From contig NZ_JABCRE010000003.1 of NCBI RefSeq assembly GCF_012972675.1, forward strand, positions 558,001 to 622,000: a DNA stretch of 64,000 nucleotides. The letters are read 5' to 3'. The translations under genes were made by a program, and so were the position numbers. The notes under the pieces were generated by a model. That model saw nothing but the letters and a program-made list of their open reading frames with translations, did no database searches and was not told where the DNA came from. The stretch is from Pontixanthobacter rizhaonensis (GTDB taxonomy: Bacteria; Pseudomonadota; Alphaproteobacteria; Sphingomonadales; Sphingomonadaceae). Shown here one piece after another: positions 3,859 through 64,000 of this stretch. The first letter of the stretch is position 1; each line of letters opens with the position of its first letter.

Positions 3859-4596
3859 CTAAGCCAGCGTCAGACCGCCATCGACTATGAGTGTCTGTCC
3901 TAGAATATAAGACGATAATGGGGATGCCAAGAACATGGCGGCGCCCGCCATTTCGGCTGGCTCGCCCATCCTACCCACAGGGATTTTGGCAAGAGCGCCT
4001 TCCAAACGCCCCGGATGATCGGTGGTGACTTTGGTCATCTTCGTAGCCACGAAGCCCGGTGCGATGCCGTTTACCCGGATACCGTCACCAGCCCAAGACG
4101 CCGCGAGTGTTCGCACCAGGGCGACCGCACCGGCTTTTGATGCAGCATAGGCCGGGTTGCCCAAGGTCGCGTGGAAGGCCGCAGTTGAGCTTACCACAAT
4201 CAAAGCACCACCGGTCGCGGCAAGCGCATCATGAAACTTACGGGCGCAGTCCATTACGGAATTGAGATTGATATCCATTACCGCGTCCCAGCCCTCCCGT
4301 TCAAATTCTGCCCGGCGATATTTCACTGCACCTTGGCACAGGATGAGAACGTCCAGCTGATCGAATGACGGGGCCGCATCCACCGCGTCTGGATTGCCCA
4401 CATCCACCGATGTGTAGTGCAGCCCTTCCAAATCGGAGCCTTCTACGCCGTCATAATCTGATGCCTGCGCCCGGGTGCCCCATACATTCACTTGCGCACC
4501 GCGTTGCCGAAATGCTTGCGCCATCCCGTTACCGATTCCGCTGGAGCCACCAACTATCAGTACCCGCTTACCGGCAAAATCAAGCGGATCGGTCAT
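3859..4596 (-). CDS. SDR family NAD(P)-dependent oxidoreductase
   Basis: A 245-residue classical short-chain dehydrogenase/reductase. The cofactor loop is VLIVGGSSGIGNGMAQAF (T-G-x-x-x-G-x-G type, with G-G-S-S-G-I-G), then a variant N-N-A-G (LCQGAVKY), the catalytic Ser in VVSSTAAF and the Tyr-x-x-x-Lys in NPAYAASKAGAV. The C terminus has the SSYILGQTLIVDGGL ending common in this family. Its ATG overlaps the P450 stop by 4 nt, so it is the last gene of an acyl-CoA synthetase/P450/SDR operon. A role oxidising an alcohol produced by the P450, or acting in a CoA-linked side-chain degradation, is plausible but the substrate is not shown by the sequence. Confidence 0.9.
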   Translation of the reverse strand: MTDPLDFAGKRVLIVGGSSGIGNGMAQAFRQRGAQVNVWGTRAQASDYDGVEGSDLEGLHYTSVDVGNPDAVDAAPSFDQLDVLILCQGAVKYRRAEFEREGWDAVMDINLNSVMDCARKFHDALAATGGALIVVSSTAAFHATLGNPAYAASKAGAVALVRTLAASWAGDGIRVNGIAPGFVATKMTKVTTDHPGRLEGALAKIPVGRMGEPAEMAGAAMFLASPLSSYILGQTLIVDGGLTLA

Positions 4597-59703: not shown

Positions 59704-62700
59704 TCATTTCTGGCGGCTAATGGTCACTTCTCCGCCCAGCAGGCTGTCGGGCCGAATATCTGTAGTCTCTCCATCACGCCAAACCACTTGAATGAGGGAG
59801 ACATTCTTTGCGTTACCCAATCCGAAATGCGCGGCGATGGGGTCAAACGACATAAACCCTCCCCCGGCATTGATCGGGCGGGTTTGGCATTTGCCCGGCT
59901 GCGGCTGCGTTATGCCGTCAACGCATATAGTCACCCGGGCATCAATACCCATCCGGTTGCCGATACGATCACGCAGGTGAACCCATAATGCCGGGCCGCT
60001 GGGTTTTTCATTGCGGTGCACAACTACGGCTTTGCCATCAGGGGGACGTATAACGTCGATGTCACCATCGCGATCGAAATCCAGAGCCGCAAAGCTGTAA
60101 GATGGAGTCACATCCGTAAAGCCGAATTGCTCCGTCCGATCAGCGAATGTTCCGCCTTCATTCCGATAGAATACATTGGTCGTGGTTCTGCTGACAGAAA
60201 ACCACGCACCCGTCATCACCAACAAATCCTGCCAGCCATCCTGATCTAGATCGGTAAAGCGGCTATTCCAGGTCCAGCCAGGGAAATCCACTTGCTGTTC
60301 CGGTGCCATATTGGTGAAACTGCCTGCCGCTCCGCCCGTCATCAAAATATTGCCCGCTCTGATGGCTGGCTTATGCAGTCGTTCAATTTCTTCATTGCTC
60401 ATGGCATCCACCATCGGAAGCTTGAAAGTTTCGCAATAGCGGCCGGCAAACGGCCAGCGTTTAAGCGCGCTACTGCACCGTTCAAAAGCACCTTCGCCTG
60501 AAATTCCCTTTTCAAAAAAATCACTATTCTTCGTGGAGCCTAAAAAGTGCCCGATACCGCATAAAGTGGCATCCCGGTCTGACAGAATTTCAGACTGACA
60601 TAGATTATAAGTGAAGCCAGTCCGAAATGCGCGGATCTGGTCGACCGAGAGCATTTCCGCAGCGCATTGGCGAACACGGTCATTCGCCCAACCAAAGTCT
60701 CGCCCAAATTGTTGGCAGACCTTCAGGATACGCCCTTCTCCGCGAACACTGGTTCTTTGCTCGCTGCCGTGTGGTTCGGAGATTTGTCCGCCATAATAAT
60801 CCGGGATCAGGTCGTTATTCCAGTCACCCTCGTCATAGCTCATGCTGGTTTGTACAAAGTAGGGAAACGGCTGTAGCGATTTATCAGAACGCGTTCGACC
60901 ATCGGGTGAGAAAAAGACAAACTGATCGGTGGCTTTGAAATCATCGCCCTTCAGATAATCGGGTCGCCCATCGCGGTTCACATCAGTCACCAATCCAGTC
61001 AACGTTTGCCCAATTGATCCAGCGACGCTTTCCGCCCTAAAATTACCGTCTCCGTCATTCCAAACAATCCTGTTGGCGGTGGTGGATGGCTGCAAACGGG
61101 CCCATCCTTCTTTTCCCTGACGAGAAGCCCACTCACCCAGCAAGATGTCGAGCCAACCATCTCCGTCAATATCAGAAAATGACACGGCCATAGTGGTCGT
61201 CGATGCAGGACCAGGAACATGGATCATACTATCCTGATCGAACTGTCCCGATCTATTGGTGAAGATGTATAGGCCATCCCAAAAACTCGTCACAATAAGG
61301 TCAAGCCAGCCATCATTATCAAGGTCGGCAAATGCTGTGTTGGCAATCTGAAGTTCGCCTACTGGCCCCAGATCAAGTTCCTGCCGCTCGTATTTTCCGC
61401 CAATATTGGCATAAAGAGATAGCCCTCGGGCACCCAATGGGCGGCGGAAAACGATATCTGTCCAGCCATCATTGTGAATGTCCCCCGCCGCTATCCCGCC
61501 AACCATCATGCTGGGTGCAAATTCGTGAAGCGGAGTTTGGGTTCCGATATCGTCAAAACCAAGTTGCGCCCCAGGGACACGATCAAAGGGTAACCCACCT
61601 TCACTGCGGCCTGTCACATTTCCAGAGCCAAGCTGCGCGAACTTCGCCGTTATAGTACTGCCTTCGCTGGTTGAATAGCCGATGGGCAATGGTGTGCTTT
61701 CGATCGCTTGCGACCCTATCCCCGGCGACAATGCTTCAAGATCGGCGGCCTTTGGCAGGGCCGGTAAAGCCGGCATATCAAAACCTGCGCGACTTTCGAT
61801 GAAAGCCGTGGTGCGCTGGGCTTGCAGTCTCATTTCGAGCGGCTGGGTTTTCATGGCGATTACCCCCCCGATCATTGCCAATGCGATTGTCGCCGCCCAA
61901 AGGCTGAGCGCGGTCCGCAGCGATACGGCCCGCCATAGAATAATGAACGCATATACGCTGAAAGAGCCAAGCGCGATGAGAACCGCCGTGCTGTAGAAAG
62001 ACGCAAGGCCAATACCCATCAGAACAATCGTCAAAATGACGTCCAAAGCTATCGGTGCCGGCACAAAGCTGGCAACAATCGCAATCGCCAGCATCGCCAG
62101 TAAGACGGGAATGGCACCTGATCTCGGCAATGCATTGACCAAAGACGCGCTGTCAAAATCCATCGCGACAACGGCGCCCATCATGGCCGCGAGAAACATC
62201 ATCGGAACGGTAATCAAGCCAATGAAAAACAGATTTCGCAAATAATTGCGAGCAAACCATATCAGCGATCCCACCAGACCATCCGGTGCTTGCTGATGTA
62301 TGTCAGACCCCAGTGACTTGCCAATCCAGGCAGTCAGGCCGCGCGTCTCTGAAACCTTCGCCAGATTGGAGACGCCGTCCTTGGTGAGCTGCGTCTCTTC
62401 CACCAGCACATATCGGCATAGCAAAGGGACAATCAACAAAACCAGCAGCACCGTCAGGATAAGCTTGGTCAATGCAATGTGAAGCGGAAGCAGTGTGAAG
62501 CTCATCGTCACCACAATGATATTAAGCGTTGGCGACGCAATCAGCGCGGATAATGTGGTTTCCAGCCGCATTCGGCCAGCATGAAGCCCCAAGGCAATCG
62601 GCGCTGCACAATTGACACAGACACCAAGCGGCGCACCGATCACCGCCCCTAAGGCCGCATTGGCAAAGCCGTTTTCAAAGGAGCGGGTCTTCACCAAAGA

Positions 62701-63024
62701 AAGCAGGGTAAGCGCTACGGCGCCAAACAGAACGCCAAAGGTCATACCTTTGACGTTTGTTGCAATCCAATTGCCGGTATTTGCGACGAAGCTCCACCAC
62801 CGCGGACTATCGGGAAGAATATCAAAAACAATCTCGAAGGACAGGCCAGACAAAGGCGTATCTCCGCCCATGATCGCTTTTTCGTCAAGCGCAGGATATC
62901 TGGAACCAAGCCAGAATGTCAGCACCAGTCCGATCAACACCGCAAGTGCGATCAGCGTTCTGTAATCACCACCACGGCGAAGGGATGGAAAGCCAATTTT
63001 ACCCATGCCAGACAACGCTATCAC
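59704..63024 (-). CDS. fusion protein: DUF318-like permease plus FG-GAP beta-propeller and UnbV domain
   Basis: A 1106-residue protein of two halves. Residues 1-395 hold about ten membrane helices and a DUF318/ArsP-like permease core: GAPLGVCVNCAAPIALGLHA with a C136-x-N-C139 pair, followed by LSALIASPTLN and, late, FVPAPIALDVILTIVLMGIG. The other half has six or more FG-GAP/VCBS-type calcium loops (IHNDGWTDIV, LDNDGWLDLI, IDGDGWLDIL, VNRDGRPDYL, LDQDGWQDLL, FDRDGDIDVI) and an ASPIC/UnbV-like end (LRDRIGNRMGIDARVTICVD, AHFGLGNAKNVSLIQVVWRD). The propeller probably lies outside. Strong AGGGGTGA sits before a TTG at 63015, which may be the true start. Full fusions of this kind are unusual. Divergent from the peptide/hydroxylase genes. 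Confidence 0.85.
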   Translation of the reverse strand: MIALSGMGKIGFPSLRRGGDYRTLIALAVLIGLVLTFWLGSRYPALDEKAIMGGDTPLSGLSFEIVFDILPDSPRWWSFVANTGNWIATNVKGMTFGVLFGAVALTLLSLVKTRSFENGFANAALGAVIGAPLGVCVNCAAPIALGLHAGRMRLETTLSALIASPTLNIIVVTMSFTLLPLHIALTKLILTVLLVLLIVPLLCRYVLVEETQLTKDGVSNLAKVSETRGLTAWIGKSLGSDIHQQAPDGLVGSLIWFARNYLRNLFFIGLITVPMMFLAAMMGAVVAMDFDSASLVNALPRSGAIPVLLAMLAIAIVASFVPAPIALDVILTIVLMGIGLASFYSTAVLIALGSFSVYAFIILWRAVSLRTALSLWAATIALAMIGGVIAMKTQPLEMRLQAQRTTAFIESRAGFDMPALPALPKAADLEALSPGIGSQAIESTPLPIGYSTSEGSTITAKFAQLGSGNVTGRSEGGLPFDRVPGAQLGFDDIGTQTPLHEFAPSMMVGGIAAGDIHNDGWTDIVFRRPLGARGLSLYANIGGKYERQELDLGPVGELQIANTAFADLDNDGWLDLIVTSFWDGLYIFTNRSGQFDQDSMIHVPGPASTTTMAVSFSDIDGDGWLDILLGEWASRQGKEGWARLQPSTTANRIVWNDGDGNFRAESVAGSIGQTLTGLVTDVNRDGRPDYLKGDDFKATDQFVFFSPDGRTRSDKSLQPFPYFVQTSMSYDEGDWNNDLIPDYYGGQISEPHGSEQRTSVRGEGRILKVCQQFGRDFGWANDRVRQCAAEMLSVDQIRAFRTGFTYNLCQSEILSDRDATLCGIGHFLGSTKNSDFFEKGISGEGAFERCSSALKRWPFAGRYCETFKLPMVDAMSNEEIERLHKPAIRAGNILMTGGAAGSFTNMAPEQQVDFPGWTWNSRFTDLDQDGWQDLLVMTGAWFSVSRTTTNVFYRNEGGTFADRTEQFGFTDVTPSYSFAALDFDRDGDIDVIRPPDGKAVVVHRNEKPSGPALWVHLRDRIGNRMGIDARVTICVDGITQPQPGKCQTRPINAGGGFMSFDPIAAHFGLGNAKNVSLIQVVWRDGETTDIRPDSLLGGEVTISRQK

Positions 63025-63242
63025 CCCTGATATCCGTCAAAGTTTCTCGATTCCCGCGACGATTTTACAGGAGCCAACCTGTACCCAATTGCCTGACCTG
63101 AGAACTCTCCACAAGAGCCAGCCGGCCGCAAAGTAGCAAAGCGTGCGAATAGAATACAAAAAAGAGCCCGCTAACTTTGCCATTGTTCTGTTGTTGCAGT
63201 CCGTGTAGAGACTGATGTCATAAATATTTAGGGGTGAATTTT

Positions 63243-63386
63243 ATGGCTGCTGAGAAAACAAACAATGCTCAAGGCACAAAACGTACTTGGACGAAACCAA
63301 AGATCAATTCCAATGTTCCGGTGAATAGAACCGAGAGCGCCGTAGTTCCGGTTAGCCAACAAGAAGACGGCTTTTATCAGTCTTGA
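63243..63386 (+). CDS. 47-residue peptide gene, possible modified-peptide precursor
   Basis: A 47-codon frame with a strong AGGGGTGA ribosome site 5 nt before the ATG. The product is polar, without a signal or membrane helix; its N-terminal half has KRTWTKPKI (residues 13-21), like the W/Y-x-x-P-x-I/L leader motif of some RiPP precursors, and the end is SQQEDGFYQS with Asp42. Codons are AT-rich compared with neighbours. The hydroxylase gene starts 24 nt downstream on the same strand. This context suggests a substrate for the hydroxylase, but no peptide family is recognised, and it could also be a small regulator or leader. Confidence is about the frame being real. Confidence 0.6.
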   Translation: MAAEKTNNAQGTKRTWTKPKINSNVPVNRTESAVVPVSQQEDGFYQS

Positions 63387-63410
63387 CGCACTAGCGGCCG
63401 AACGGACATT

Positions 63411-64000
63411 ATGCAGGCATTAGCCCGCATCCCGCCAGTAAAAAAACCAGGGACTATACGCGATCTAGGCTCGGCCGACGTCACGGCTTTGGCCAGTGCT
63501 GTCGGCCAGCTCTCTGAGGCTGTTTGGGCCGGACAGGATAGTTGCAAGGAAAATGACTTTCCTGTCTTGGGCAAGACCCGTCATATTGTCTTCCGCTTCA
63601 TTCGCCATAATCGCGATCCGCAAGATTTCTATTCCAACAGAATATGGGATATTTGGCGGCCCAAGCTTTTACCTGTGATGGAGCAAGTGACCGCCGGTTA
63701 CAGGCACCGCGAGACAGTCTATCCCAAAGTCATGTTGGCTCGCCTTCCGGCAGGTGAGCGCATCGGGGCGCATAGCGATGGGCAAGGATCGCACGCCTAT
63801 ACGCACAAAATCCATGTGCCGCTGATCAGCAATCCGGATGCGATATTCACCGTGGGTGACACCGCGCAGCATTTGGAAGTCGGCAGAGCTTACGAGGTCA
63901 ATAATATTGTCCATCATAGCGCTATCAATCGGGGTGATGAGGACCGTATTCATTTAATCTTTGAACATTTTGATCAATCCCGCGCCTATCAGCAAACCGG
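63411..64000 (+). CDS. aspartyl/asparaginyl beta-hydroxylase-family oxygenase (cut by window edge)
   Basis: A 2-oxoglutarate and iron-dependent hydroxylase of the aspartyl/asparaginyl beta-hydroxylase type (PF05118-like), with 196 residues visible and no stop before base 64000. ARLPAGERIGAHSDGQGSHA has the iron ligands H121-x-D123, THKIHVPLISNPDAIF is the core strand, and GRAYEVNNIVHHSAINRGDE has the second His (168 or 169) and N173, with R179 for 2-oxoglutarate. The ATG at 63411 follows the peptide gene by 24 nt, so they are likely one transcript. The substrate, a protein side chain or peptide, is unknown; the 47-residue product or the propeller of the divergent gene are candidates. Confidence 0.88.
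   Translation, partial: MQALARIPPVKKPGTIRDLGSADVTALASAVGQLSEAVWAGQDSCKENDFPVLGKTRHIVFRFIRHNRDPQDFYSNRIWDIWRPKLLPVMEQVTAGYRHRETVYPKVMLARLPAGERIGAHSDGQGSHAYTHKIHVPLISNPDAIFTVGDTAQHLEVGRAYEVNNIVHHSAINRGDEDRIHLIFEHFDQSRAYQQT

Follow-up and report, generated by a model that had tools for sequence, protein, structure and literature searches.

Introduction

Phosphorylation of the C-terminal Ser of lasso precursors, including SyanA, has been described (PMC9266682, PMC8498205; here and below, a citation refers to the accessible parts of a paper). The pathways of SyanA/SyanK in Sphingobium yanoikuyae, of paeninodin, and of pseudomycoidin combine parts that we also report here, namely a split B1/B2 pair, a cyclase, an HPr-type kinase with the motif H...GK-S...DD, and a precursor ending in Ser; pseudomycoidin also has a nucleotidyltransferase and a sugar (PMC8498205, PMC9266682). 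Hydroxylation is known as well: in the canucin A cluster, an Fe(II)/2-oxoglutarate (Fe/2OG) hydroxylase, CanE, acts on the linear lasso precursor (PMC9266682, PMC8498205), with B1 helping (PMC9266682). Here we examine a small gene of Pontixanthobacter rizhaonensis, located near the right edge of a 64,000-nucleotide stretch of DNA (the window, G000:C3:558001-622000, from a genome of 2.79 Mb in 4 contigs) and just ahead of a hydroxylase gene. In our judgement this gene very probably encodes the precursor of a lasso-type ribosomally synthesized and post-translationally modified peptide (RiPP), for which hydroxylation, phosphorylation, sulfation, and glycosylation are predicted. The original prediction, made from the letters of the window, had put forward an undescribed peptide-modification system. 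The locus falls within lasso-type biosynthesis, with phosphorylated SyanA and paeninodin and hydroxylated canucin as precedents, and we class it as a variant of the phosphorylated lasso-type pathway with much added tailoring; published work already covers lasso biosynthesis, phosphorylation, and Asp hydroxylation.

The W-x-x-P leader is common to the paeninodins and this precursor (PMC13381572). To the equipment of the phosphorylated lasso peptides, the locus adds a PF05118 hydroxylase, a GT8 glycosyltransferase, one or more sulfotransferases, and an ArsP-propeller protein, and its precursor differs in having an acid at core position 10 and a conserved Tyr near the C-terminus, SyanA being set apart by description and not by sequence. 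Canucin is hydroxylated on a C-terminal Asp whereas our precursor ends in Ser, CanE likewise being compared by description. The bsf cluster of Bradymonas has a kinase, B1, B2, a cyclase, a nucleotidyltransferase, and a bordering FG-GAP gene that its authors presumed uninvolved; it differs in having Ile at -2, phosphorylation of Ser3, and a C-terminal Asp, and a hydroxylase is not among the cluster genes named in the accessible text (PMC10368454). The linear polyphosphorylated peptides (LPPs) share a RiPP recognition element (RRE), a related leader motif, an HPr-type kinase, and a nucleotidyltransferase, but belong to Bacilli, carry a Y-x-x-P motif, and have neither cyclase nor B2 in their core set (PMC13381572). 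A putative sulfotransferase gene occurs in some Firmicutes lasso clusters (PMC8498205). A 2026 review already records glycosylation of Ser and lasso peptides that combine multiple unique modifications; its accessible parts mention no lasso peptide with sulfate (no word in its text starts with 'sulfo'), nor any natural ring larger than 9 (PMC13352647). In Pontixanthobacter, genes for a lasso B2, a nucleotidyltransferase, sulfotransferases, an aspartyl beta-hydroxylase, PqqD, an asparagine synthase, and a glycosyltransferase (cluster numbers 1738-1748) co-occur with halotolerance; the accessible text neither joins them into a single pathway nor names a precursor (PMC10040529). Within the accessible parts of the open-access literature, we found neither a hydroxylase, kinase, sulfotransferase, and GT8 enzyme described as a pathway in a lasso cluster, nor an FG-GAP protein as a lasso partner (compare the bsf gene above).

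Results

The peptide carries a leader of the lasso type: W16-x-x-P19-x-I21 with T30 at position -2, 14 residues after W16, agrees with the pattern Y/W-x-x-P-x-(L/I/V) and Thr, rarely Ile or Val, at -2. From this Thr(-2) rule, we infer that the leader would be cut after Thr-Glu; core numbering throughout counts from a cut placed two residues on from the conserved Thr. In 20 aligned precursors, this one included, the W, P, and T of the leader, a Tyr, and the C-terminal Ser are invariant, and the conservation anticipated for the leader motif thus holds for its W and P. A profile made from 19 relatives, with the peptide itself left out, recovers it as the sole good match (E = 8.9e-11) among 1,149 frames of at least 25 amino acids, drawn from the window and the stretch L002 introduced below, whose overlap of ~4 kb is counted twice so that the peptide is listed twice. 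The next-best frame reached E 0.64 and the best shuffled one 0.65, and a chance small frame is ruled out by this blind search. The layout read earlier from the letters also held up: a real 47-residue gene with a ribosome-binding site, its stop 24 nt from the hydroxylase ATG (63411), rich in A+T (45.1% G+C vs. 57.0% in the whole window; 0.8% of 144-base windows are equally low or lower), and divergent from a permease/FG-GAP fusion on the minus strand with the same ribosome-binding site. The peptide had no protein family match in a Pfam-type search of the window proteins, and a direct search with it in 98 related genomes gave weak matches, the best of which came mainly from the genus itself, frequently several to a genome.

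The right edge of the window falls within the hydroxylase gene, which reaches 13 bases past it, and the remaining cluster genes lie beyond 64000 on L002, a stretch reaching past the window edge (window position = L002 position + 59,999). There, the further maturation genes expected to the right of 64000 were found: on one strand the operon runs precursor, hydroxylase, HPr-type kinase, sulfotransferase, PqqD/RRE protein (B1), cyclase (C), GT8 glycosyltransferase, and B2, with genes 4 to 66 nt apart if the kinase starts at its ATG. B2 scores as a leader peptidase (NF033537, 65.2 bits, above the cutoff of 33) and keeps Cys and His-Ala-Trp. The best NCBIfam model of the cyclase is the lasso cyclase NF033535 (E 4.5e-96; 322.9 vs. 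a cutoff of 525), that of the PqqD-like protein is the lasso PqqD chaperone NF033536 (73.6 vs. 80), and the kinase has the HPr-type motif H...GKSGAGKS...DD. The precursor also ends in the Ser expected of the SyanA/paeninodin type, with a caveat on selection for Ser given below, and an APS (adenosine 5'-phosphosulfate) kinase, for PAPS (3'-phosphoadenosine 5'-phosphosulfate), is encoded in the genome. Leader, B1, B2, and cyclase together argue for the lasso class, from which this precursor departs in the position of its ring acid.

Among the 98 genomes, the precursor profile (E <1e-10) and the lasso-type hydroxylase (E <1e-100) pick out the same nine (G000, G002-G007, G022, G050), which are not nine independent events because these genomes are related and supplied part of the sequences behind the profiles. 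With the cluster genes, this co-occurrence supports the earlier proposal of a ribosomal, leader-guided peptide with a maturation hydroxylase. Weak, uncounted matches came from two further genomes for the precursor (G018, 6.6e-4; G024, 0.006) and from two different ones for the hydroxylase (G060, 1.3e-38; G087, 1.3e-36). The G018 precursor adjoins a B2-cyclase-PqqD-kinase cluster without the hydroxylase (L195), and no lasso gene is in view around the two weak hydroxylases (L239, L240). B2 occurs in 29 of the 98 genomes. Hydroxylase, kinase, sulfotransferase, PqqD, cyclase, GT8, and permease/propeller stand together in 6/15 of the relatives' stretches fetched first, and the same seven-gene set recurs in G003 (L192). 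In six relatives, the resident precursor sits between PqqD and the cyclase; the 24-nt arrangement of peptide and hydroxylase is therefore found only in this genome among the Sphingomonadales clusters compared, and peptide-hydroxylase adjacency is refuted as a general rule.

A contig scan with the hydroxylase alignment gave 48 loci. Clusters with several of the other genes occur on contigs labelled Alpha- and Gammaproteobacteria, Acidobacteria, Puniceicoccaceae, and Saprospiraceae, although many loci are bins or short contigs, and the taxon labels of bins may be wrong. Because several contigs are short, the absence of a gene is often uninformative. For counting, loci of the order-wide search were added, and duplicates (L050, L052, L055, L056, and L057, of L042, L193, L043, L192, and L034) and distant or cut loci (L078, L081, L082, L084, L086-L095) were left out beforehand. 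Of the 51 loci run, L080 had no hydroxylase match, and 40 have a hydroxylase of at least 42% identity. Of these 40, 28 have a kinase gene in view, and 25 of these 28 have a cyclase too. The steadiest partner of the hydroxylase is the sulfotransferase, and not the propeller: 36/40 loci, and nine of the 12 with no kinase in view, have a sulfotransferase-like gene at a distance of 2 kb or less, compared with 2/20 B2-centred lasso loci, from genomes without this hydroxylase, that have such a gene in the stretch. Such frequent partnership suggests that hydroxylation and sulfation may be linked. Seven of the 12 kinase-free loci (L073, L233-L238) contain a second, longer hydroxylase with a sulfotransferase, and six of these seven have a TonB-dependent receptor (two Pfam-confirmed). 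L073:1137-8136, L234:4017-11058, and L235-L238 show, in a row, TonB-dependent receptor, sulfotransferase, hydroxylase, second sulfotransferase, and longer hydroxylase, with no lasso gene in view. L068:193-1482 encodes 429 amino acids whose C-terminal part is a hydroxylase and whose N-terminal half looks sulfotransferase-like by eye, a possible fusion; Pfam finds the hydroxylase domain only, and the fusion was not counted.

It had been argued that hydroxylase loci without a conserved peptide would speak against a peptide system, and such loci exist in part. No resident precursor was found in the hydroxylase clusters L048, L053, L059, L067, and L192, nor in L193, which is cut by the contig end, and 12/40 hydroxylase loci have no kinase in view, seven of them representing the other context above. 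The genome of L192 encodes four precursors elsewhere.

The hydroxylase matches the Asp/Asn beta-hydroxylase family PF05118 at 47.1 bits (cutoff 22.6). H121 and D123 (H121-x-D123), H169, and R179 are invariant in 24 aligned hydroxylases, and we take them, by family analogy, to be the Fe/2OG-binding residues. Its predicted fold (mean predicted local distance difference test score, pLDDT, 93.3) best matches a nucleoside-antibiotic hydroxylase (7v4m, Z 14.5, root-mean-square deviation (rmsd) 2.8, 149 residues aligned), followed by AspH (Z 13.5-14.4, rmsd 3.1-3.5, 164-166 aligned), and matches also include proline hydroxylases, with rows within 1 Z being tied. By sequence, matches in the PDB are weak (best 8.2e-4). 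The predicted model supports an active Fe/2OG hydroxylase and would indicate the superfamily, not the substrate or the target residue. Asp42, which the original prediction had named as a possible target, did not stand up as a universal site (see the discussion of residues below); an Asp or Asn after the acid is seen in seven of eight cluster-resident and five of 15 remote Sphingomonadales precursors, numbers too few and too related to weigh.

The position of the ring-closing acid is where this precursor departs most from published lasso peptides, which have Asp or Glu at core 7-9 (PMC10368454). Asp or Glu at 7-9 is present in 16 of 31 hydroxylase-cluster precursors (near-identical ones, with further copies in L065, L066, and L075, removed by hand; the L232 hydroxylase just 38% identical), in 9/15 remote precursors (leaving out two in G007 and one in G002), and in 8/9 parsed hydroxylase-free controls (of 11 control precursors, L188c and L189 were unparsed and L188b was probably cut in the wrong place). 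In the other 15/31, among them our own, counting from position 7 the first acid comes at 10, 11, or 12. Precursors with the acid at 9 and 10 coexist with one B2 match in G007, and with the acid at 9, 10, and 11 in G003. One enzyme set is known to make 8- and 9-residue rings in the caulosegnins, and production has been seen to drop when ring size was changed by one residue (PMC13352647). The pattern may mean either larger rings, or a shifted cut, or a different bond. The last of these would make the product a linear or otherwise cross-linked polyphosphorylated peptide, with a lasso-derived cyclase forming another bond or none, as in the LPPs, which share the leader motif type, RRE, and kinase (PMC13381572). 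The 15/31 precursors without an acid at 7-9, some with it as far along as 12, fit such a product, as does the spacing in 23 Sphingomonadales precursors, where the distance from acid to C-terminus varies less (standard deviation (SD) 0.52) than that from N-terminus to acid (SD 0.79), as if use were tied to the C-terminal end, in a set of related sequences with two identical cores. Yet 16/31 precursors obey the 7-9 rule, and the cyclase (with its SGGLDS motif) and B2 found here contrast with LPP core sets, which have no macrolactam cyclase and a signal-peptidase-type protease, and we regard this alternative as unlikely. Returning to the lasso-type reading, the 23 Sphingomonadales cores have 15-18 residues with the acid, then usually Phe-Tyr, and a terminal Ser. 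Elsewhere, the cores of two precursors from acidobacterial bins, GGAGDKDDQDDIFYTKS (L062) and GGTYVTMMVGDDAWYKS (L061), place Asp-Asp at the site that is Glu in most others, and one of them contains five Asp among its 17 residues. Clusters L064, L065, L066, and L075 (Pseudomonadales/Alphaproteobacteria bins) have two kinases and up to four precursors per cluster, some of which carry Pro-Pro-Pro-Pro tracts before the leader motif.

Several relatives keep most of their precursors outside the cluster. In G003, four precursors lie at C1:1,514,227-1,515,714, with one hydroxylase match at C1:316,798, one B2 match, and no precursor resident in the cluster itself (L192); G007 has eight precursors in three places, one hydroxylase match, and one B2 match. 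The leaders of remote precursors are of the same type as those of resident ones, and from the hydroxylase and B2 matches we infer, as the simplest reading, one enzyme set that would act in trans. Multiple precursors within one lasso cluster are known (PMC13381572). Precursor arrays with no machinery gene matched around them were seen at L039:9225-10772, L040:9652-10379, L041:9597-10227, L194:8790-8936, and L033:16835-17320. An S9 peptidase is near four of the seven fetched remote loci (L038, L039, L040, L194), and a sequence closing L033 that had been suspected of being an S9 fragment had no Pfam match and was not counted. The three S9 peptidases tested fitted the Dpp5 model more closely than that of the Atxe2 isopeptidase, with scores far short of the cutoff in both cases. 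Remote arrays and S9 peptidases are a possible in-trans system with its own hydrolase. P. rizhaonensis keeps the S9 gene (83% identity) and has no precursor at that locus (best profile E 0.18), where relatives have them.

The cluster of the relatives lies between conserved genes and contains a nucleotidyltransferase and an ATP-binding cassette (ABC) exporter. At the corresponding place on contig C2, P. rizhaonensis has homologues of the nucleotidyltransferase (48%) and the ABC exporter (53% identity) without the other cluster genes, which are on contig C3 at the window end. From the cluster parts on C2 and C3 and the precursor ahead of the hydroxylase, we conclude that the cluster was split and rearranged. 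It might even be a decaying cluster that makes no product, its low-G+C small gene a remnant, and the two genes stranded on the other contig, the missing remote precursors, and a core that is by eye the most divergent in the order (a Ser-Ala start where the 23 Sphingomonadales precursors usually have Gly-Gly, and the tail YQS) would all suit that idea. We consider it improbable: despite the split, the frames are open and closely spaced, catalytic motifs are kept, and the precursor retains the leader W and P, the Thr, the acid, the Tyr, and the Ser.

The ArsP permease/CRTAC1-like propeller is a recurring neighbour in lasso-type clusters with and without the hydroxylase. The nearest solved fold to its propeller part is murine CRTAC1; the model of the whole protein has a mean pLDDT of 71.8 with a low N-terminal permease part, and the propeller match alone was used. 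It is found in 11 of the 98 genomes, all with B2, three of which (G001, G023, G030) lack this hydroxylase; G002 (77% complete) has the hydroxylase and no permease match. AspH-type enzymes hydroxylate Asp and Asn in proteins, and in this genome the hydroxylase and permease/propeller genes flank the peptide gene. It was thus conceivable that the hydroxylase acts on the Asp/Asn-rich calcium loops of the propeller, as the original prediction allowed, and that the peptide is unrelated. That view has been weakened to the point where we find it highly improbable: the lasso-type clusters L185 and L187, which lack the hydroxylase, contain the permease/propeller, as do the three hydroxylase-free genomes, no propeller is in view in the hydroxylase clusters L060, L062, L063, and L072, and in relatives the hydroxylase stands beside the kinase and sulfotransferase with the propeller ~5-7 kb away. 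No lasso gene was matched around the permease/propeller in L184 and L186. At L187:8496-17248, G006 has a second permease/propeller copy beside a kinase-PqqD-cyclase cluster, that is, a second lasso-type cluster in this genome, with a precursor that has Ile at -2 and no hydroxylase matched.

Coordinates are collected in Table 1. The ribosome-binding site of the permease/propeller gene (63028-63021, minus strand) overlaps its listed GTG start; given the spacing, the true start is therefore probably the in-frame TTG at 63015 or ATG at 63006. Downstream of the cluster and on the opposite strand, L002:10183-18200 holds what looks like an operon for nitrate/nitrite assimilation, with Pfam matches to MobA-like, MoeA, tetrapyrrole methylase, molybdopterin oxidoreductase, and nitrite/sulfite-reductase-type genes.

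Table 1. Features of the locus, in window positions unless L002 is named
Feature	Position	Strand	Remarks
Precursor gene, lasso-type, 47 aa	63243..63386	+	ATG start; leader 1-31, predicted core 32-47 SAVVPVSQQEDGFYQS; an alternative in-frame GTG at 63234 would give 50 aa
Ribosome-binding site AGGGGTGA of precursor gene	63230..63237	+	just 5' of the ATG
Divergent intergenic region, presumed shared promoter region	63016..63242	.	AGGGGTGA sites on both strands
Fe(II)/2-oxoglutarate hydroxylase, PF05118 Asp/Asn beta-hydroxylase family	63411..64000 in the window; whole gene L002:3412-4014 (end window-equivalent 64013)	+	200 aa
HPr-type kinase	L002: frame from 3962, more likely ATG at 4019	+	HPr-kinase-related; HprK_rel_A best model, below cutoff
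Sulfotransferase	L002:4983-5804	+	motif YPKSGNT
PqqD-like protein (B1)	L002:5868-6146	+	PF05402 above Pfam cutoff
Asparagine-synthetase-like cyclase	L002, ends 8078	+	PF00733 above cutoff; SGGLDS
GT8 glycosyltransferase	L002:8133-9056	+	family match
Leader protease B2, transglutaminase fold	L002:9123-9608	+	NF033537
ArsP_1-type permease + FG-GAP propeller + UnbV/ASPIC (UnbV_ASPIC) fusion	59704..63015	-	longest frame starts 63024, listed GTG

Discussion

Several observations weigh against a lasso-type product, which is a prediction from genes alone. The cyclase, the PqqD-like protein, and the kinase all score below curated NCBIfam cutoffs, and the cluster of P. rizhaonensis is rearranged and split over two contigs. 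The first acid of its own precursor, Glu41, falls at core 10 with Thr at -2, outside core 7-9, and would fall inside it if the cut were one residue later. The counts of conserved residues are affected by how precursors were gathered. A C-terminal Ser is present in 31/31 hydroxylase-cluster precursors, 15/15 remote precursors, and 6/9 parsed controls, a count that leans on a search model of Ser-ending peptides; a Tyr in the last six residues occurs in 30/31, 15/15, and 1/9, respectively, with candidates at loci L048-L075 listed only if they ended in Ser or had Tyr within the last six. The Tyr is absent from the control cluster L188, which has a sulfotransferase, and its distribution, with controls few, is suggestive of a target for sulfation or hydroxylation. 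The residue after the first usable acid is Asp or Asn in 16 of the 31 hydroxylase-cluster precursors, and no classical AspH target is universal among them. The sulfotransferase references included genes taken from six of the 40 loci themselves (L034, L044, L067, L070, L073, L234). Finally, the same hydroxylase subfamily (44-50% identity) stands beside sulfotransferases with no lasso gene in view, with a TonB-dependent receptor at six loci; L073 and L233-L238 thus show that the subfamily is not exclusive to lasso-type clusters.

Taking these points with the evidence for a lasso-type pathway, we propose the following scheme. B1 would bind the W-x-x-P-x-I leader and present the core, which the PF05118 enzyme may hydroxylate while it is still linear. 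On the linear core, the kinase would phosphorylate the conserved C-terminal Ser, and the sulfotransferase and GT8 enzyme would modify hydroxyl groups, the sulfotransferase most likely pairing with the hydroxylase, on the new hydroxyl or on the conserved Tyr. B2 would then cut at the predicted Thr-Glu site, and C would activate Glu41 to form a macrolactam with the N-terminus. Export may take place via the ABC exporter and/or the ArsP-type permease, and the propeller, probably periplasmic, may bind the peptide or a partner. Least secure in this scheme are the ring size and topology, the residue that is hydroxylated, and the role of the permease/propeller.

A broader version of this scheme, which we offer tentatively and hold to be doubtful as a whole, is that a single set of enzymes produces a family of lasso-type peptides bearing hydroxyl, sulfate, phosphate, and sugar groups, with macrolactam rings that go past the known 7-9 residues to 10, 11, or 12 (10 in P. 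rizhaonensis); that in relatives this set also processes several precursors encoded at distant sites; and that an ArsP/CRTAC1-like protein recurs as an export or sensing partner of lasso-type systems. If true, one short operon would place four polar decorations and a ring closure on a 16-residue peptide, and would do so in distantly related bacteria. Such peptides would break the 7-9 ring rule, and rule-based prediction would miss or mis-cut them. The remote precursors would make this a lasso counterpart of pathways with many precursors and one enzyme set, and the hydroxylating and sulfating enzymes would be a pair for peptide engineering. It would also provide the first context for ArsP/CRTAC1-like permease-propellers.

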